The notes beneath the pieces are model-generated. The model saw only the letters and a program-made list of their open reading frames with translations. It made no database searches and was not told where the DNA came from. The translations under genes and the position numbers were made by a program. Positions 18,827 to 26,786 of a DNA stretch of 64,000 nucleotides are shown here, piece after piece. How positions within the stretch are numbered: the stretch's first letter is position 1; every line of letters starts with the position of its first letter. The stretch lies in contig CAMDRO010000005.1 in assembly GCA_945906795.1 (NCBI GenBank), positions 1 to 64,000 on the forward strand, in the 5' to 3' direction. The DNA is from Spirosoma fluviale (lineage in GTDB: Bacteria > Bacteroidota > Bacteroidia > Cytophagales > Spirosomataceae).

Positions 18827-20176
18827 TTATTTGCGTAAATGTATATCCGCTTTGCGATAATAATTAGCTATACATTTACACCAAAGATGTTTAGGGTCAG
18901 TGGATAATTCTTCCATAAAAAACATGGTATTCTTATTTTTGATGGCTGGAATTGTTACGTCTTGTTCCTGAGATTGTAACACTTTTTCAAACCTTTCCGT
19001 ATTTTCTCTAGCGTAATTTTTAGCTTTATCAAAACGCCATTCAACATAAAATTGTTTTGCATTTTGATTGAAAAAGAGTAATGCTATGAAAATAACGAGT
19101 AGGGCAATTTGAGAAATTATTTGATTATGTGGGTTTATTTGAACGAAGCATAATTTAAACCAAACTATTGCAAATCCAAAACCGAGCATTAAATACATTA
19201 AAATTAAACTCTGAATTCTGTCAGGAATAAATTCTTCTCCAAGGCCTAAGGCAATGGGGATAAATACTAAAAAATAACTCAGAATGAATACAAAAAAAAG
19301 TGCTGAAAATTCCGCCAAGGTCAATAATGGCTGCTTTTTAGGCTTTTCTATTGTGACCAATAACATAGCATTAAATACCCAAATTAGGGGTGATTTAACA
19401 TAAATTTTAAGCAACAAGCCAAAATTTAATACAGACTCAGTCAAGCCATTTGTATAATCAATGTTTTTGGGAGCGCGGATATTATTTCCAGGTGAGAGCA
19501 AAACTAGGCCTATGGAAATACCCCAAATAATAAAAAATAAAATAGTCTCTAAGTTAACTTTTTTCTGTTTCCAAGCTGTGAATAATTGGCATGGCCAAAA
19601 AATTCCAGAGAACATGATCATCGAAATTTCACCTGAACCAATCAAGCAAAAAATGATACAAGCAATTAAAAAGATTCTTAGGATAGGCCTGGAACAATAG
19701 AAATAAACGTTGACAAATAAGATGGCTAAATGGAAAGATAAGTAATAATAATGTCCTGAAAACCAATAAAATAATTGGAATAGGCCTGGAATTGTATACC
19801 AACAAACCGCTTGGCTGACGAGGGAAAGAATCCAAAGGTTCGGATCATTGTGCGATAGTTGGAGTGTATTTTTTAAAAAATAATACCCATTCACAAAACC
19901 TACAACGATTAAGGTGATCGTTCCCCACTTAAAATGCTCGAAAGTTGGACTAAAAACGAGTGGGTTAAAGTGAAGTAAAAGATCTGCAAAATAGCGGCCA
20001 CTCCAACCCGCATAATATTGATACGCCCCCTGAAAAATCCCAAAATCCCTTCCCATCCAGCCGAAGCAAAAGTCATCAGTGATGCTGGGTTGATTGTAAA
20101 AAGATAGGGAAATGAGTAGAAATGCCATAAATCCCCACGCCAATAAACTAAGAAATAAAGGGATTTTCGAGAACAT
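18827..20176 (-). CDS. Polytopic membrane protein (DUF6056-like), glycan cluster
   Basis: The 449-residue protein has about ten to twelve hydrophobic helices. The N-terminal loop after the first helix (PSITDDFCFGWMG, then YYAGWSGRYFADLLLHF) resembles the D-D-x-C and GRYF motifs of DUF6056 and related lipid-linked glycosyltransferase-like membrane proteins; this resemblance is from memory. An acidic pair in the first outer loop is typical of GT-C fold enzymes that use polyprenyl-phosphate sugars, so a GT-C transferase role is possible. I choose the ATG at 20176; the frame runs further upstream to 20284 but would overlap the preceding glycosyltransferase gene. It is the last gene of the six-gene cluster. 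Confidence 0.75.
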   Translation of the reverse strand: MFSKIPLFLSLLAWGFMAFLLISLSFYNQPSITDDFCFGWMGRDFGIFQGAYQYYAGWSGRYFADLLLHFNPLVFSPTFEHFKWGTITLIVVGFVNGYYFLKNTLQLSHNDPNLWILSLVSQAVCWYTIPGLFQLFYWFSGHYYYLSFHLAILFVNVYFYCSRPILRIFLIACIIFCLIGSGEISMIMFSGIFWPCQLFTAWKQKKVNLETILFFIIWGISIGLVLLSPGNNIRAPKNIDYTNGLTESVLNFGLLLKIYVKSPLIWVFNAMLLVTIEKPKKQPLLTLAEFSALFFVFILSYFLVFIPIALGLGEEFIPDRIQSLILMYLMLGFGFAIVWFKLCFVQINPHNQIISQIALLVIFIALLFFNQNAKQFYVEWRFDKAKNYARENTERFEKVLQSQEQDVTIPAIKNKNTMFFMEELSTDPKHLWCKCIANYYRKADIHLRK

Positions 20177-20195
20177 GGTTTTAGCTAGTCGTATA

Positions 20196-20921
20196 TTAAA
20201 AAATGACTCTATTTTTACGAAGGTACTGGGTGAAGAATAAGTAGGTAATGTATAAAAATCGATTTTTGGCTCGTTTAATTTCACTAGAAATATTTCTTTT
20301 TCTCGCCTCAGCTACGCGGCAAGTAACTTGAATATCTATCGATTTAGCTGAAGAATTTAATAATTTTCCTGTGTGGTCTAATGAATAGTTCATGTACCTC
20401 GCATCCAATTTAAGGGATTGAAGCAGAGAAGTCTTAACTAATTTAAACGCGCATGAAAAATCTTTGAGTTCCGAATTGAAGATTCCGTTACAAAGTTTGT
20501 TGGATATTTTTTGCCCAAAACGATTAAACTCATTGTCATATTTTCGATTCCGGTGTGTAAAAATAATATCGGCATCTTGGTTACCTAATGCTGTAAGCAT
20601 TGGGTTTACGTTATCGATGGGGAATTGGCCATCGGAATCGGTGATTAAAGTCCAGTCCAATTTGGCTTGAGAAATGGCTTTTTGAAATGAGAATCCGGGT
20701 CCTTCATTGACGTCATTTCGCAAGATGACAACTCGATGGTTTCCCATAAAGGCGTCGCGTAAAGATTCATATTGTTGTAAATCACTGTGATCATCACAAA
20801 TAATCACTTCTCCTTCAGATATATCGGGATGCTGATCGAAATACGCAAGCCATTCGTTTGCTAAATGGATTATTCCGGGGCATTCGTTAAAGGCTGCGGT
20901 GACGATGCTGATGGATTTCAT
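20196..20921 (-). CDS. Family 2 glycosyltransferase (DPM1-like)
   Basis: The 241-residue cytoplasmic enzyme begins with the GT-A nucleotide-binding strand SISIVTAAFNE, has an acidic pair in VIICDDHSD, and carries an intact DxD metal motif in ITDSDGQF (D95, D97). DADIIFTHRNR and DFSCAFKLVK correspond to the acceptor region of dolichyl/polyprenyl-phosphate sugar transferases. No membrane helix follows, unlike many bacterial relatives, but the next gene encodes a polytopic membrane protein that may supply the anchor. Its ATG overlaps the stop of the upstream epimerase gene by four bases. Donor and acceptor are not known. Confidence 0.88.
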   Translation of the reverse strand: MKSISIVTAAFNECPGIIHLANEWLAYFDQHPDISEGEVIICDDHSDLQQYESLRDAFMGNHRVVILRNDVNEGPGFSFQKAISQAKLDWTLITDSDGQFPIDNVNPMLTALGNQDADIIFTHRNRKYDNEFNRFGQKISNKLCNGIFNSELKDFSCAFKLVKTSLLQSLKLDARYMNYSLDHTGKLLNSSAKSIDIQVTCRVAEARKRNISSEIKRAKNRFLYITYLFFTQYLRKNRVIF

Positions 20922-21802
20922 GCTTCGATTAATTGGCTTATTCCTTGTTCAAGGGATATTTCAGGATTCCAATCTAAGTATTTTTGTGCTTTTGATATAT
21001 CGGCTAAAGTTTCTTCCGCGTCACCAGATCTCCTTTCAGTATGGTAATTTTCGATAGGGAAAAAATTAGCTAGTTCTTTGATAGAGTAATTGACGCCAGA
21101 GCCGATGTTAAAAATTTCACCCATGGTCGCGGAATTCATTGCGGCAACATTCGCTTTCACGATATCCAAGACATGGATAAAATCACGCTTTTGCTCTCCA
21201 GAACCATGTATTTCAAGTCTTTCACCTTTTTTAAAACGGTCTAAAAAAATCCCGAGAACCAAAGCATACGCCCCGGTGGCTGGTTGGCCTGGCCCATACA
21301 CATTAAAATACCTCAGAATATTACATTCGAGACCAAAATTCCGATAAAATTGCTGCACATAAAGTTCGCCCACATGCTTAGTGAGGCCATAAAAATTCAA
21401 AAAATCACCGGGATCACCTTCTTTTTGAACCCCTATTTTATTCCCATAAAAGGTAGACGATCCTGAATATACGATACGCTTGACTCCATTTTTTTTACAC
21501 GCTTGAAGTATATTTAATGTCCCTAAAGCATTGCTTTCGTGGCATTGTTCCGGCATATCAAAAGAGGGCCCACTTCTGGAAAAGGCAGCCATGTGAAACA
21601 CCCCATCGACATCTTTGGTCGATTGGAGGCACAAGTTATTATCTTCAATTTTACCAATGATCAAATTGGCTTTAGGGTGAATTTTATTGGGATCACCAAA
21701 AGACATATCGTCTAAAATACTCACCTGATGACCTAAAGAAATTAAGTAATTAGACAGGTGTGTTCCAATAAATCCAGCGCCGCCGGTCACTAAATAATGC
21801 AT
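20918..21802 (-). CDS. NAD-dependent sugar epimerase/dehydratase (extended SDR)
   Basis: The 294-residue extended short-chain dehydrogenase has the Rossmann loop VTGGAGFIGTHL at 5-16, a Ser-Ser-containing active strand (SGSSTFYG), and the catalytic Tyr-x-x-x-Lys in FYGLTKHVGEL. GEIFNIGSGVNYSIKEL matches the substrate domain of UDP-sugar 4-epimerases. It probably converts a nucleotide sugar for the neighbouring glycosyltransferases. The exact sugar cannot be called. The gap to the upstream nucleotidyltransferase is 22 bases and the downstream overlap is four bases, so it is in the operon. Confidence 0.9.
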   Translation of the reverse strand: MHYLVTGGAGFIGTHLSNYLISLGHQVSILDDMSFGDPNKIHPKANLIIGKIEDNNLCLQSTKDVDGVFHMAAFSRSGPSFDMPEQCHESNALGTLNILQACKKNGVKRIVYSGSSTFYGNKIGVQKEGDPGDFLNFYGLTKHVGELYVQQFYRNFGLECNILRYFNVYGPGQPATGAYALVLGIFLDRFKKGERLEIHGSGEQKRDFIHVLDIVKANVAAMNSATMGEIFNIGSGVNYSIKELANFFPIENYHTERRSGDAEETLADISKAQKYLDWNPEISLEQGISQLIEA

Positions 21803-21824: not shown

Positions 21825-22592
21825 TTACGATTTATCGCTAGATCCTTGACGGATTTGATCTTTTTGGTTTAAAAATAAATTAGCTTCATTAAGCTCTTCG
21901 GGGGTATTAATTCCAATGGACTTATAATAAGGCTGATCTAAACGCCAAAAAATCGCTGTATTCTGCTGAATGGTTTCAAAAAATTTAACAAAATTTCGTT
22001 CGCCCGTAACTTTTCCAAAGGGCGCATTGATTTTATATAGTGGCCATACGGACTCAATTGACCCACGGGTAAAGGCAAAAATTCCCATATCTTTAAAACC
22101 AAAAGCGTCACATTTTTCTCCTTCTCTGCTCTCCCAAACTGCGAGCGGAGAACCTAATTTAAACTGAACATAGGGGGAAGAAACCCACACAAGGGGCACA
22201 GAGACCTGGTATTTTTCTAAATCAGAAAACAAGGTTTGATGTAATTCGGCATCACAAAAGGGCTGATCTCCCCATTGCACAATCACTTGAAAATCTTCCT
22301 GGCGATTTAAGAGCGCATCAAATAGTTGATTCATTGCATCAAACATTCCTGTGGCAGATTCTTGGACCCAAACATGTACATTTTTAGGAGCATTTGCGGC
22401 AATATGTGATTCAAAATAATCCTTGCCCGAAGGACTTAAGAGTAAAATCATTTCGTCCACATGCGAGGTTCCCTGCTCCACAATCAGGTCAAAAATAGAT
22501 TTGGCCTGATAAACAGCTGTAAATATTTTGGGCAAATCGCTGTTTAGGCGACTTCCTTTACCTGCAGCAGGAATTACAATGACTTTTTTCAT
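21825..22592 (-). CDS. Sugar-phosphate-type nucleotidyltransferase
   Basis: The 255 residues have the N-terminal nucleotide loop PAAGKGSRLNSDLPK (8-22), with the Gly-x-Gly-x-Arg and a downstream Lys typical of nucleotidyl transferases, and an acidic metal site in VIVQWGDQPF. The enzyme would activate a phosphorylated sugar or small acid as an NDP or CMP derivative. Its substrate is unknown. Its place between a HAD phosphatase and an epimerase suggests an NDP-sugar pathway; next to a CofD-like gene it also recalls the CofC/CofD pair of coenzyme F420 synthesis, though the sequence looks more like a sugar enzyme. The ATG overlaps the HAD stop by four bases. Confidence 0.85.
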   Translation of the reverse strand: MKKVIVIPAAGKGSRLNSDLPKIFTAVYQAKSIFDLIVEQGTSHVDEMILLLSPSGKDYFESHIAANAPKNVHVWVQESATGMFDAMNQLFDALLNRQEDFQVIVQWGDQPFCDAELHQTLFSDLEKYQVSVPLVWVSSPYVQFKLGSPLAVWESREGEKCDAFGFKDMGIFAFTRGSIESVWPLYKINAPFGKVTGERNFVKFFETIQQNTAIFWRLDQPYYKSIGINTPEELNEANLFLNQKDQIRQGSSDKS

Positions 22593-23200
22593 CCTTGATC
22601 GATTAGATAGGTCAAATATTCATTTATTTCAGGAAAATACAAATCTGATTTTTTGGCGATTTTGGGGTTATGAACTCCAACAGCGAATATACCTGCATTT
22701 TTAAGACTTTCTATTCCTTGCATTGAGTCTTCGATTCCATGCATTGAGCCTGAAATATTGAATTTTGAAATACAGGTTAAAAAAGGTTCAGGGTCTGGCT
22801 TGGATTTTGTATAATCATTGGCGGCAATAATTCCGTCAAAAAAACCTGCAATTTGATGCATATTGAGCAATAGGTCGATGGAGAGCCGACTACCTCCCGT
22901 GACAATAAAAACGCGATGTCCTACACTTTTCAATTGGCGGATAAGATTAAAATCAACCAAGGCTTTAATGGAATTTAGATCGGCCTGATATGTTTGGGAT
23001 TTAAACGAAGCCAGTTTTTTCACCATGGCCTCATCATTTGAATAATTGGCAAAAACGTCTTTGGTTTTAATTCCTTTTAGTGATTCATAATTAGGACATT
23101 CCCCTAAGCTAAAGGTCGTAAAAGTCTTTTGAAAAGCTAATTCGTGAGCTGAATCAGTGTCAAAAAGTGTTCCATCAAAATCAAAAAGTAGATTATACAT
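22589..23200 (-). CDS. HAD-superfamily phosphatase (beta-PGM/Gph-like)
   Basis: The 203-residue protein starts at the ATG at 23200 and shows all HAD motifs: DFDGTLFDTD near the N-terminus (nucleophile and acid/base aspartates), a Thr in VTGGSRLS (motif II), a Lys in KSKPDPEPF (motif III) and the acidic pair in GIEDSMQGI (motif IV). A helical cap follows motif I, as in phosphoglycolate phosphatase and beta-phosphoglucomutase. It probably removes or moves a phosphate on the precursor used by the adjacent nucleotidyltransferase; D-glycero-manno-heptose phosphatases have a similar position, but the sugar here is not established. Confidence 0.88.
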   Translation of the reverse strand: MYNLLFDFDGTLFDTDSAHELAFQKTFTTFSLGECPNYESLKGIKTKDVFANYSNDEAMVKKLASFKSQTYQADLNSIKALVDFNLIRQLKSVGHRVFIVTGGSRLSIDLLLNMHQIAGFFDGIIAANDYTKSKPDPEPFLTCISKFNISGSMHGIEDSMQGIESLKNAGIFAVGVHNPKIAKKSDLYFPEINEYLTYLIDQG

Positions 23201-24893
23201 AGAGCCCAAACAAGTTGACGATTACATTTTTTATTTTGGTTAAGATTTTAACTTTTTTAAATGTGCGGTAACTGATTGGCAAAGAAACAAATTCAAAATT
23301 CTTTTTTCTATTTATTTTTTTCAAGAAATAGGATAGGCTTTTATAGGGGATGTCATGTTTTGATTTAATCAAATAAATCCCACTGAGAGGATCCGGCATA
23401 ATTCGCCAAAACCGAATAAAATAGACGATGCTAACCCAATAGGATGTAATCAGGGCAAATAAATAAATTAAATTAGACTCGACAATCGAGTGCTTGAACG
23501 AGTTGATGAGTTGGCGCCTCGATTCAAATCTTGATCCAATCACCGCATCTAATTGGTTTAATTGCATGATTCGAATCCATGCGTCAATTTCATAAAGAGA
23601 AATTTTTCCCGAAGCGTCTAAGTGAAGCGTATAGGATGAAGCCTCTTTTTCGCCTGCTTGGTAGAATTTGATGATCCTTGTTGGATCGCTATTTAGGCTT
23701 TCCATTTCATTGTGGTAATAATCTTTGATAAATTCCTCGGTGTTTTTGGCAAAGGAGATGAGCACGGGAACTTCGCCCGACTTAACATCAAGTGATCGAT
23801 TGATCCAAGTCCATAATTTTTGTCCATCATGATTGCCCGTTGGGTCTGCGACATTGGCAACCGTCAAATTGGGAATCGATTTTAATGGTTTGATGACCGA
23901 ATGGGTATCCACAATAATGGAATCAAAAAAATCAATCTTTGTTTGGCCTAATTCCTGAAGAACTTTTTGAGTAAATTCGTCAAATTGAATATTTGTAGTG
24001 TCGTTATCATAATTATTGTTGACAATGAGCACTTTTGGGGCTTTAGATTTTAGTATTGCATTTTTGCAAATTCGGTAAGAAGGAAGTAGGGAAGAAAACT
24101 GAGTCCCTGAACCAAAAATAATTAAATCAGCTTCTTTTAACGCTTTGAGAGCCTCTTTAGAAACGGCTGGTATTTTTGAAATTCTTTCTATTTCTGCTTG
24201 GGTATAATTGCCTTGCTTATCGAGTGCATAGAGTTCATCTAATGGCAACAGATAAAAATCTGAAAGTGGCTTATTCCCGACAAAATTGACGATATCCGCT
24301 TCATTGGCTAAAAAATTCCCATCGCCGTCAAAGGCCACTATTTTAGAATCATCAGCCGTAGATATATTGATAATTTTTGCTGTTAGCTCAAATTGGGTTG
24401 TCAGTAGATACAGTGCAAGATTGAAATCATTTGTTTCTGCATATATACCCCCTATAATGATGTTACCAACACTAAAACCATTAAGAGTGAAAAAATTATG
24501 GGTAAAATTTAAAAGCTTTTGAGAACCAAGCTCAAAGTATCGAGTAATAAAATTTTCTGAACGACGGTCTAAAGCATACTGTTCTTGAATCAGTTTTTTG
24601 ATCAATTCATTTGGGTTATGAAGAAGGACTCTCGTTTCCTCCTCACTTAATCGATGTTCAAAAAGTTTTTTAAGGTTACGATTATAATCGGTGAAATCAT
24701 CTAAAATATGGGTGAAATTCTTGCGGTAATCTGAGGGCCCAAGCATGCCTTGATTGGCACTCCTTATAACCCCCGTGGAAAGTCCGTCGTCATAGCCATT
24801 AATTAAAAGACTCAAATTCACATAGGATAAATCTTTTAAGTGCTTAATAAGATTAGCATTTCCATTACCCCCAGTAAAAACAACTACGTTCAT
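23193..24893 (-). CDS. CofD/YvcK-like protein fused to a glycosyltransferase-2-like domain
   Basis: I start at the ATG at 24893 (566 residues). Residues 1 to about 375 have the CofD/YvcK fold: FTGGNGNANL (6-15), NGYDDGLSTG with D35-D36-G37, LGPSDYRK (51-58), VGNIIIGG, and FGSGTQFSSLLPS. CofD transfers a phospho-lactyl group to Fo; YvcK binds UDP-sugars. From about 385 the sequence changes to the C-terminal two-thirds of a GT2 enzyme: YTLHLDASG (D426), DAVIGSRF (from 449), two hydrophobic helices, DPLSG (501-505) and LPISYR. The GT2 metal motif DxD reads D-A-S. I infer an enzyme transferring an activated phosphoryl or sugar group in glycan synthesis. It is the first gene of the cluster and overlaps the HAD gene by eight bases. 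Confidence 0.82.
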   Translation of the reverse strand: MNVVVFTGGNGNANLIKHLKDLSYVNLSLLINGYDDGLSTGVIRSANQGMLGPSDYRKNFTHILDDFTDYNRNLKKLFEHRLSEEETRVLLHNPNELIKKLIQEQYALDRRSENFITRYFELGSQKLLNFTHNFFTLNGFSVGNIIIGGIYAETNDFNLALYLLTTQFELTAKIINISTADDSKIVAFDGDGNFLANEADIVNFVGNKPLSDFYLLPLDELYALDKQGNYTQAEIERISKIPAVSKEALKALKEADLIIFGSGTQFSSLLPSYRICKNAILKSKAPKVLIVNNNYDNDTTNIQFDEFTQKVLQELGQTKIDFFDSIIVDTHSVIKPLKSIPNLTVANVADPTGNHDGQKLWTWINRSLDVKSGEVPVLISFAKNTEEFIKDYYHNEMESLNSDPTRIIKFYQAGEKEASSYTLHLDASGKISLYEIDAWIRIMQLNQLDAVIGSRFESRRQLINSFKHSIVESNLIYLFALITSYWVSIVYFIRFWRIMPDPLSGIYLIKSKHDIPYKSLSYFLKKINRKKNFEFVSLPISYRTFKKVKILTKIKNVIVNLFGLYV

Positions 24894-25034
24894 ATTAAAC
24901 TCGATAAGTTTCAAAGTTAATTGATTTTACTGAAATGAGATTTGCTAAAATTATTTTTAGGGGTATTATTTCAAAATAATTTAGTGATTTTTTGTAAATT
25001 GCAGACTCTTAAAAGCAAAGCCTTATTACCTGAG

Positions 25035-26786
25035 ATGCAAAAAATTATTTCACTTTTATTTTTTAGTTTATTTTTATTAGGTAAAACTTCGGCTCAGACT
25101 TTTGGCTCTTTTACTTTCAATAAATTACCCCAAGATTTCCAATTGTATCCAAGAGAGTCTACTAATTTGGCCGATATAACGGTGGAGGGAGTGGCAAAAT
25201 CTGCCGAAATTACCGCGATTTCCATTCGGGTTTTGCGAAATGGCAGTATAAATAAATACCAAAAGGCGGCATTAACATTTAGCGGATCTTCGGCTAAATT
25301 TTCAACTACATTTCAAATACCCGCCGAATTAGCAGAATATGATTTTGAAATTTATGGCTTTAAAGGGAAGGATTCAAGTTTAGTGGTCAAAAGAAAGAAT
25401 GTAGTGGCTGGTGATGTTTTTTATGTAACAGGTCAATCCAATGCATGGATTGGACCGATTGACGATTTGGTTTATCAGGGCGAATGGGTTAGATCTTTTG
25501 GGTTAGTTCAAGGCAATGATAATTATGGGCCTTATAATTTAGCTGATACATTATGGTCACTACCTGTTGGAAGAGCGAGGATTGGACCTTGGGCTGCAGA
25601 AATTGGCCGACTTCTATACGAGTCCGAAAAAATTCCTATTTCCATTATAAATTCCGCAGCAGGTGGATCAGACATAGATTGGAATTCCATTTTAGATGGA
25701 AATCTTTCAGCTCCTGATGGCGGAAACATTATGTACTATAAAGCGATAAAATCGGGTACAATAAAATACGCTAAAGGATTAATATTTAGACAAGGAGAGA
25801 CTGAAGCGGCAGCAGCTAATGGACCAAAATATGAGTGGGGGGTGAAATTTGAAAGCTTAAAGCAAAAGTATAAAAAGTATTTTCCTGCGTCCAAGTTTCT
25901 GTTTGCCCCTCAAAATAATGTTTATGAATATGCTTATCCTCAAGCAGCAACATTAAGAGAAGACATTAGGAAACAGCAGCAAAATGATCCTTACATAAAA
26001 ACTTTTGCTACGGCTGGCCTACCTGGATTTGATCGCATTCATTACACTAACATTGGATACAGACAGGCTGGTTTAGAGTTATTTAGGATAATTTCTAAAG
26101 TGGTTTATAAACGTAATTTAACAAACGAAGTATTTAGCCCAAGCATACAAAGAGTATATTATCTATCTCCAAAGGAACGCAATAAATTATATTTAGAATT
26201 TGACGAAGGCCAAAAGCTTATTATCCCAAATGACACAACCGTCTTGGACAATAAGGGGAATCCTCACATTTCTAAATTTTTTAATCAATTTTTTTGGGAC
26301 CCAACCAATTCAACAAGTTTAGGTAATTATATTTTAAAAGTGGAGTTAGTTGAGATGAATAAGTTATTAATCACTTTCAAAAGTGACTTTGAAGGCTTTA
26401 TCGGCTACATGCCCGACTTTCATAGAGATTTTGTAACTGCTAAAAGCGAATATCCTTTTCCTGGTCCATTCATTAAAAATTCATTGGGTATGCGAGCTTT
26501 AGGATTTTCGTATTTCCCAGTTGAAAAGGATCAGGTTGATTTTTTAGTAAAATTTAATTTAAGCCCAAATCCGGTAAGCGATAAAATAAAAGTTGAATGG
26601 TCAGCAGCCACAAGTGGCGAAATCATTATATACGATATGAATGGGCATATTCAATACTTTGAAAATATTATTGGACTTAAATATAGATGGGTTGACATTT
26701 CTCAACTTCCTAATGCAAATTACTTTATTACATTTAAAAATAAAGAAGGGTTAATTTCCACGAAGCGCCTAGTTATTATCAAATAA
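25035..26786 (+). CDS. T9SS-exported SGNH/sialate-O-acetylesterase-like protein
   Basis: From the ATG at 25035 the protein has 583 residues and a signal peptide ending Thr-Ser-Ala-Gln. The SGNH block I (GQSN, 133-136, nucleophile Ser135) follows the phrase AGDVFYVT, as in sialate O-acetylesterases. Later motifs are INSAAGGSDIDW, RQGETEA and a C-terminal DRIHYTNIGY with the catalytic Asp and His. The last 75 residues are a type A T9SS sorting domain: SPNPVSDKIKVEW, IYDMNGHI, LPNANYFITF, KRLVI. The enzyme therefore probably acts on the cell surface or outside, removing acetyl esters from glycans. It is divergent from the glycan cluster and convergent with the acetyltransferase gene, overlapping it by eight bases. 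Confidence 0.88.
   Translation: MQKIISLLFFSLFLLGKTSAQTFGSFTFNKLPQDFQLYPRESTNLADITVEGVAKSAEITAISIRVLRNGSINKYQKAALTFSGSSAKFSTTFQIPAELAEYDFEIYGFKGKDSSLVVKRKNVVAGDVFYVTGQSNAWIGPIDDLVYQGEWVRSFGLVQGNDNYGPYNLADTLWSLPVGRARIGPWAAEIGRLLYESEKIPISIINSAAGGSDIDWNSILDGNLSAPDGGNIMYYKAIKSGTIKYAKGLIFRQGETEAAAANGPKYEWGVKFESLKQKYKKYFPASKFLFAPQNNVYEYAYPQAATLREDIRKQQQNDPYIKTFATAGLPGFDRIHYTNIGYRQAGLELFRIISKVVYKRNLTNEVFSPSIQRVYYLSPKERNKLYLEFDEGQKLIIPNDTTVLDNKGNPHISKFFNQFFWDPTNSTSLGNYILKVELVEMNKLLITFKSDFEGFIGYMPDFHRDFVTAKSEYPFPGPFIKNSLGMRALGFSYFPVEKDQVDFLVKFNLSPNPVSDKIKVEWSAATSGEIIIYDMNGHIQYFENIIGLKYRWVDISQLPNANYFITFKNKEGLISTKRLVIIK

Follow-up and report, generated by a model that had tools for sequence, protein, structure and literature searches.

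What would a CofD/YvcK domain contribute when it is joined to part of a glycosyltransferase at the head of a set of sugar genes? The question is raised by a protein of 566 amino acids (aa) from Spirosoma fluviale, encoded in the first 64,000 nt of contig CAMDRO010000005.1 (assembly GCA_945906795.1), which is the whole stretch of DNA analyzed and is hereafter called the window. We consider, with a probability of roughly 55 %, that this fusion protein is the first component of a five-gene nucleotide-sugar cassette, and that a matching trio of genes in phages feeds DNA glycosylation, the sugar being destined here for a glycan. Comparisons of the predicted genes show that those for CofD, a HAD protein and a GlmU-type nucleotidyltransferase are linked, and that the viral trio is situated beside genes for DNA-base glycosyltransferases.

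The fusion gene is a single unbroken frame on the minus strand, with an ATG at 24893 and a stop codon at 23195-23193; a reading of 23193..24893 on the plus strand is ruled out by stops throughout. The first-pass annotation of this DNA had described a single 566-residue frame at these positions, which we found uninterrupted and with all its listed motifs (D35-D36-G37, LGPSD at 51-55, FGSG at 260-263, LDASG at 425-429, DAVIGSRF, DPLSG and LPISYR), although its strand had to be set as minus. Full-length homologues without internal stops, with 60-92 % identity, occur in other species of Spirosoma, and this excludes an assembly join or a frameshift fusing two genes, a possibility that the same annotation had raised. 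The search for the same fusion in other Bacteroidota retrieved it from 12 of 222 genomes of the family, every one from this genus and two of them truncated by contig ends, and from only one genome, its own, in a sample of 395 drawn across the phylum. In that sample, the own genome was also the sole carrier of the CofD domain (E up to 1e-6), which makes lateral gain likely; beyond the phylum, the search consisted of a single scan of genome contigs with patterns from close relatives. The open-access PMC text available to us, part of the literature, contained no description of CofD fused to GT2 or of CofD in phage DNA modification, and the term "CofD" did not appear in the passages searched from papers on jumbo or large phages.

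On the minus strand the gene order is fusion, HAD, nucleotidyltransferase, epimerase, GT2 and DUF6056 (Table 1). End-to-start overlaps join the fusion to the HAD gene, whose ATG lies inside the end of the fusion gene, the HAD to the nucleotidyltransferase gene, and the epimerase to the GT2 gene. The order of the five cassette genes plus DUF6056 was kept in all nine loci examined, from both the 92 % and the 60 % lineages, with DUF6056 being shortened by the end of the locus in L011. The nucleotidyltransferase was found in 10 of the 38 genomes of the genus, all of them carrying the fusion, and the contigs from two further genomes with the fusion end inside the fusion gene. Three genomes lacking the fusion (L173, L174 and L175) were inspected at the neighboring amidohydrolase gene. 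In L175 this gene, DUF6056 and the 614-aa esterase gene are found together and the five genes are missing as a unit, their expected site, between the matched portions of DUF6056 and of the esterase, spanning ca. 300 bases; neither DUF6056 nor the esterase was found in the stretch fetched around the amidohydrolase from L173 and L174. The cassette, comprising the CofD fusion, HAD, nucleotidyltransferase, epimerase and GT2 genes, behaves as a block, being either present or missing altogether. A search of plasmids with the window nucleotidyltransferase gave no match.

A tblastn search of 50,697 phage records with the window nucleotidyltransferase produced a single match at E up to 0.01, in the 462-kb uncultured phage LR756500. 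This phage also holds the best CofD match to the fusion, ca. 2 kb from the nucleotidyltransferase match, in the form of a 612-aa protein in which CofD (3e-22) is joined to a region with HAD motifs and weak matches to PMM and HAD_2. Matches in the phage collection from Listeria, Staphylococcus and other host-type entries were taken as ordinary YvcK because of their low identity and the organism. A viral scan with alignment A1 gave no match, and scans with single phage proteins found only that phage; the sets of viral loci described below come from IMG/VR scans with the broader CofD alignments A5 and A8. They are metagenome contigs with no known hosts, many being fragments and several exceeding 200 kb.

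The first IMG/VR scan, with CofD motifs, yielded 12 loci, 10 of them distinct (L078 is the same as L077, and L080 as L075), and all contained a CofD-HAD protein. A nucleotidyltransferase gene was present in the 12 loci, directly downstream in 10, upstream in L072 and after three genes in L069; it was detected, with a weakest E of 4.3e-18, by a hidden Markov model (HMM) of three rows, for which L069 is the training phage. The window and viral nucleotidyltransferases match in a pairwise comparison (E 1e-14), and the aspartate of their GD motif is conserved in the module. A recurrent neighbor of ca. 375 aa, identified from BLAST clusters in seven of the 10 distinct loci, is a homologue of the T4 beta-glucosyltransferase (BGT; PF09198 1.4e-20 for the row tested). 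At the level of records, BGT occurs in 10/12 (8/10 distinct), and both remaining distinct records carry TAGT, which in the L072 record is roughly 146 kb away from the module. Also near the viral CofD module are thymidylate-synthase-like genes (5/10 loci of this set) and nucleotide-kinase genes (6/10 and 4/10). The BGT from L075 is matched by 119 of the 50,697 annotated phage records at E up to 1e-5, including LR756500.

The second scan extended this pattern to 39 loci with 34 distinct CofD sequences. A HAD HMM matched inside the CofD open reading frame (ORF) in every locus (weakest 3.6e-34), and the nucleotidyltransferase was found in 38, the exception being L209, where the available sequence stops after another 3.5 kb. 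BGT was detected in 33 of these loci, split over two frames in L217, and TAGT in four, using an HMM built from rows named by Pfam, with 37/39 loci containing a DNA-base glycosyltransferase within 8 kb. In the reverse direction, a search starting from BGT found the CofD set in 29 of 34 BGT loci, and not within 10 kb in L138, L141, L142, L145 and L146; the CofD-derived and BGT-derived locus sets overlap, with many shared contigs and a few mutual copies. The fusion partners are exchanged among systems, being CofD-HAD in viruses, HAD-nucleotidyltransferase in L143 and CofD-GT2 in the window.

Some viral contigs showed additional features. In L143:3921-6285 a stand-alone CofD is followed by the HAD-nucleotidyltransferase fusion, as deduced with HMMs (Pfam detects CofD and the nucleotidyltransferase, not HAD). 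TAGT-type glycosyltransferases are also found beside CofD-HAD-nucleotidyltransferase genes in L204, L212, L213 and L219 (see also L072:1768-2979), and one TAGT-bearing record has a C5-cytosine methylase near the CofD gene, which fits a methyl/TET route to hydroxymethylcytosine. Genes similar to hexapeptide-repeat transferases, together with methyltransferase genes, occur near the module (L070:3564-4436, L070:1998-2954 and L079:4781-5587) and hint at decorated sugars.

The CofD/YvcK assignment of the first-pass annotation, made from motifs, was borne out by a match of PF01933 (CofD) to residues 3-334 (6e-28; 98.3 bits versus a cut-off of 30). The nearest NCBIfam models were YvcK TIGR01826 (90 bits, below the cut-off of 196) and the GAK-system CofD-like model (62 bits, below 340), and the F420-specific CofD model was not among the CofD matches of the window at E up to 1. 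AlphaFold with a 9-row alignment gave a predicted local distance difference test (pLDDT) value of 39.8; with an 18-row alignment only the CofD domain was resolved, with block means of 63-96, mostly above 75, for residues 1 to ca. 371 and values below 50 for residues 372-566. Structure prediction of the two parts, as the first-pass annotation had advised, thus returned a fold for the first and not for the second. The Foldseek/VIA matches concern the CofD part, the C-terminus having no confident model, and the nearest structures were YvcK 2ppv, 2hzb and 2o2z (Z 31.3, 282-295 residues, root-mean-square deviation 2.1-3.4), followed by FbiA (Z 20.6) and CofD 3c3d (Z 19.8).

All the rows compared, from the window, L006, an Acaryochloris plasmid, two YvcK proteins and the 34 distinct viral sequences, have D35 and D55, whereas S54, K58, T264, D296 and D298 are shared by the window, Acaryochloris and viral rows and absent from both aligned YvcK rows. 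The likeness to YvcK/GlmR (UPF0052) includes the fold, a glycine-rich start and residues D35, D55, N144, E198 and N292; in contrast, the window protein scores below the YvcK model, is separated from YvcK by a well-supported branch (100/99, see below), is fused, and belongs to a sugar cassette. With CofD/FbiA, from F420 biosynthesis, it shares the superfamily, the fold and a nucleotidyltransferase partner, but the identity in structural alignments is 11-14 %, the partner is here GlmU-like, and the scores of the window protein are YvcK-related and not those of an F420 CofD. On these predictions, the window CofD domain is a YvcK-like fold of a separate subfamily.

In a 32-row tree, a branch with 100/99 support separated three YvcK rows from the viral rows and the bacterial clade. 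The latter was placed beside the viral group, not inside it, with support of 90/92, below the firm-support mark of the program. A stand-alone CofD from a conjugative plasmid of Acaryochloris (L017:11983-13080) fell inside the viral clade; no HAD or nucleotidyltransferase gene was found among its annotated neighbors.

The C-terminal half was more elusive. Residues 367-566 had no match to PF00535, to any other GT2 Pfam or to curated families; a PDB sequence search with the C-terminal half gave no match, and the C-terminus from L006 produced two unrelated family names, both below cut-offs. However, residues 367-566 scored 22.0 bits (E 4.6e-9, one comparison) against an HMM of DPM-like GT2s, shuffled versions reaching at most 5.8 bits (200 shuffles) or, for residues 372-566, 8.8 bits (2000 shuffles); the C-terminus of the 60 % relative scored 11.3 bits with the same model. 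This HMM was built from 39 rows from the own genome and the phylum sample, some of them near-copies. Among the 64 ORFs of the window, the whole fusion ORF ranked second with this model (18.5 bits), behind the true GT2 and ahead of the next at 6.2 bits. The hhalign probability against the 39-row set was 54 % (E 1.3e-4), and 12 % and 0.7 % against two other GT2 sets. A wholly unknown C-terminal fold was set aside in view of the DPM-like HMM scores versus shuffles. Of the HMM searches foreseen in the first-pass annotation, that for CofD succeeded, and that for GT2 did so only with the DPM-like HMM built here.

The alignment of the C-terminus with DPM-like GT2s starts at the DxD strand and covers the remainder of the protein. 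In the fusion, S replaces the second D of DxD (DAS), the same column being D in 38 of the 39 GT2 rows, and the spacing from P-x-Y-N-E to DxD is ca. 46 residues, by counting, versus 79-88 in the 21 GT2s measured. Because the CofD domain ends near residue 371 and DAS begins at 426, most of the nucleotide-binding half of a GT2, which is ca. 38 residues short, is absent. Residues 372-566 are therefore taken as a degenerate GT2 retaining about half of a GT-A fold, which probably is non-catalytic. The altered DxD and the probable loss of catalysis proposed in the first-pass annotation agree with this; the GT2 domain it described holds as a GT2-derived back end, not as a whole domain. Ten true relatives of this half were found in 99 relative genomes, one further match with four stops being left uncounted, and scans of viral contigs and of plasmids found none.

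Known sugar pathways offer comparisons for this set of proteins. The NDP (nucleoside diphosphate)-heptose pathway consists of a kinase, the HAD phosphatase GmhB, a nucleotidyltransferase and an NAD epimerase. The window cassette lines up these enzyme classes in the same sequence, except that CofD occupies the kinase slot; it differs in having no sugar kinase or isomerase among its Pfam matches, and its epimerase scores below the cut-off of the heptose model. In viruses, APH-type matches were found in four of the five records whose BGT locus lacks CofD, versus two of the 25 CofD-bearing records (Fisher p 0.0026, 30 records), the fifth of the former, with no APH match, being a 13.7-kb fragment. 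Five of the six APH proteins also matched the nucleotidyltransferase HMM. These APH/nucleotidyltransferase proteins resemble RB69 ORF53_52c and Thanatos TH1_060 in size and order, phage genes that, like TH1_063, their authors tie to DNA sugar modification; passages from the corresponding papers suggest roles for ORF53_52c and TH1_060 in the supply of UDP (uridine diphosphate)-pentose (PMC6024577, PMC12838424), and those from the latter report the demonstration that TH1_063 acts as a UDP-xylose pyrophosphorylase (PMC12838424). The difference is that ORF53_52c and TH1_060 have an APH-type phosphotransferase domain where the module has CofD-HAD. Since APH proteins occur where BGT loci lack CofD, the comparison suggests for CofD-HAD a role akin to that of a sugar kinase. 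The BGT-bearing contig L141 codes, at L141:19085-20809, for a 575-aa nucleotidyltransferase-APH fusion that resembles TH1_060 and ORF53_52c in size and order, with the CofD set not within 10 kb of BGT.

The proposed mechanism rests on this comparison of the kinase slot. The CofD domain would use a Mg-nucleotide, or an NDP-linked donor, with a metal at D35/D55 for the anomeric phosphorylation of a phosphosugar; HAD would then strip the other phosphate, or act as a mutase, leaving a sugar-1-phosphate that the nucleotidyltransferase would convert to an NDP-sugar. In the window, the epimerase may remodel the NDP-sugar and the cassette GT2 would transfer the sugar to a lipid carrier or glycan, whereas in phages the NDP-sugar would be consumed by a DNA glycosyltransferase of the BGT or TAGT type. 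As for the degenerate GT2 tail, it could provide a surface for docking to the cassette GT2 or to the membrane, or be a remnant that binds the acceptor.

Several observations weigh against this proposal. Known CofD chemistry takes the phospho-group from an NDP-linked donor and not from a free nucleotide, so the kinase-like use is an extrapolation, and 27 of the 34 distinct viral CofDs carry N as the second residue of the DD pair. The window HAD is a separate gene, of a different kind and not fused to CofD: it matches PF13419, the viral HADs give sub-cut-off matches to PMM or HAD-IIB, and the alignment between both is confined to the first motif (E 0.025). They look like different families, and the HAD step common to both may accordingly have arisen by convergence or may not be the same. 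The window cassette lacks a DNA-base glycosyltransferase, its glycosyltransferase being a GT2, and the viral loci L207 and L220 have no base glycosyltransferase, the L207 record carrying TAGT elsewhere. The join of the bacterial and viral clades involves branches flagged as long. As for the kinase slot, one of the four APH matches in the group with BGT loci lacking CofD is below the family cut-off, the two CofD-bearing records with APH show coexistence, and the absence of CofD from the five records was judged on 10-kb flanks and non-appearance in CofD scans, which miss some CofD-bearing contigs.

Among the other explanations, the best placed, albeit unlikely, is that the CofD domain is a second uridyltransferase, making a UDP-sugar from UTP (uridine triphosphate) and a sugar-1-phosphate, either side by side with the GlmU-like enzyme or in a complex with it. 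YvcK/GlmR is the closest fold, and passages from PMC10128056 report that GlmR makes UDP-GlcNAc (UDP-N-acetylglucosamine) from UTP and GlcNAc-1-P, an activity cut ca. 100-fold in the D40A/D41A/N198A mutant. Both D40 and D41 are matched by D35 and D36 of the window protein, but the N198 position, matched by counting, is S272 here and T in 33 of the 34 distinct viral rows, and a second uridyltransferase would be redundant because the module already holds a GlmU-type nucleotidyltransferase with its conserved GD aspartate.

We give still less credit to a logic of the CofC-CofD type, in which the nucleotidyltransferase would make NDP-X from a phosphometabolite and CofD would move phospho-X onto a sugar, a glycan or a DNA hydroxymethyl group. 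The CofD/FbiA fold and the conserved D35/D55 are compatible with it, and passages in the literature describe the pairing of a nucleotidyltransferase with CofD in F420 synthesis (PMC8764529) and a direct transfer by FbiA with one divalent cation (PMC7253369). Nevertheless, YvcK is structurally closer than CofD (Z 31 versus 20), the nucleotidyltransferase scores best against GlmU-type models, with no CofC model among its matches, and such chemistry would use up an NDP-linked compound instead of providing one for BGT or TAGT. The glycan phosphotransferase of a new type imagined in the first-pass annotation belongs under this explanation, as a possibility that is not our best reading: the HAD, GlmU-type nucleotidyltransferase, epimerase and GT2 partners, as well as the viral versions beside DNA glucosyltransferases, favor the supply of nucleotide sugars. 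Least probable is a non-catalytic, UDP-sugar-binding regulator of the nucleotidyltransferase, after the model of Bacillus subtilis YvcK/GlmR, which passages in the literature describe as binding UDP-sugars (PMC5482804) and as proposed to act on GlmS (PMC7525490). YvcK N218 is retained as N292 in every row examined, and the T14 position is N10 in the window protein. Residues Y265 and R301, on which UDP-GlcNAc binding depends, are unmatched in the window and viral rows, the alignment being gappy there, and the constant pairing with HAD, and fusion to it, in viral proteins argue for an enzyme.

Returning to the nucleotide-sugar cassette, a bolder formulation can be put forward only tentatively. 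In it, the new CofD/YvcK branch would be a sugar-anomeric phosphotransferase that, with HAD and the GlmU-type enzyme, forms an undescribed NDP-sugar route leading to DNA glucosylation in large phages and to a glycan in freshwater Cytophagales; in the chimera studied here, CofD would provide the nucleotide site and the half-GT2 the binding of the acceptor.

Table 1. Predicted features of the fusion gene and its surroundings in the window
Feature	Coordinates	Strand	Evidence
566-aa CofD/YvcK–degenerate GT2 fusion gene	23193..24893	minus	Uninterrupted ORF, PF01933, full-length homologues
CofD/YvcK-fold domain, residues 1-371, conserved D35 and D55	23781..24893	minus	PF01933, AlphaFold, VIA, conservation
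Degenerate back half of a DPM-like GT2, LDASG replacing DxD	23196..23780	minus	HMM score versus shuffles
HAD phosphatase or mutase	22589..23200	minus	PF13419 4.5e-26; nearest named subfamily beta-phosphoglucomutase type, TIGR02009 2e-23, below cut-off
GlmU-type sugar-1-phosphate nucleotidyltransferase, MobA-like nucleoside triphosphate transferase fold	21825..22592	minus	PF12804 9e-8; glmU model 5e-12, below cut-off
NAD-dependent nucleotide-sugar epimerase or dehydratase	20918..21802	minus	PF01370 2.5e-54; galE 1e-46 and heptose epimerase 2e-35, both below cut-off
GT2 glycosyltransferase, DPM/polyprenyl-phosphate type, D-S-D	20196..20921	minus	PF00535 3e-16; DPM-like HMM 200.8 bits
DUF6056 membrane protein, downstream of the cassette	18827..20284	minus	PF19528 2.3e-12
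Divergent 614-aa gene adjoining the cassette	24942-26786		Homologue L012:6117-7934, SASA sialate-esterase family with Por secretion tail

These results tie the poorly understood YvcK/CofD fold to the supply of nucleotide sugars through strong gene linkage, and propose a pathway, open to testing, by which phages encoding homologues of T4 BGT or TAGT would obtain the donor for DNA glycosylation; the sugar used may be other than the UDP-glucose of the host. A like trio exists in a bacterial sugar cassette, itself present or absent as a block.

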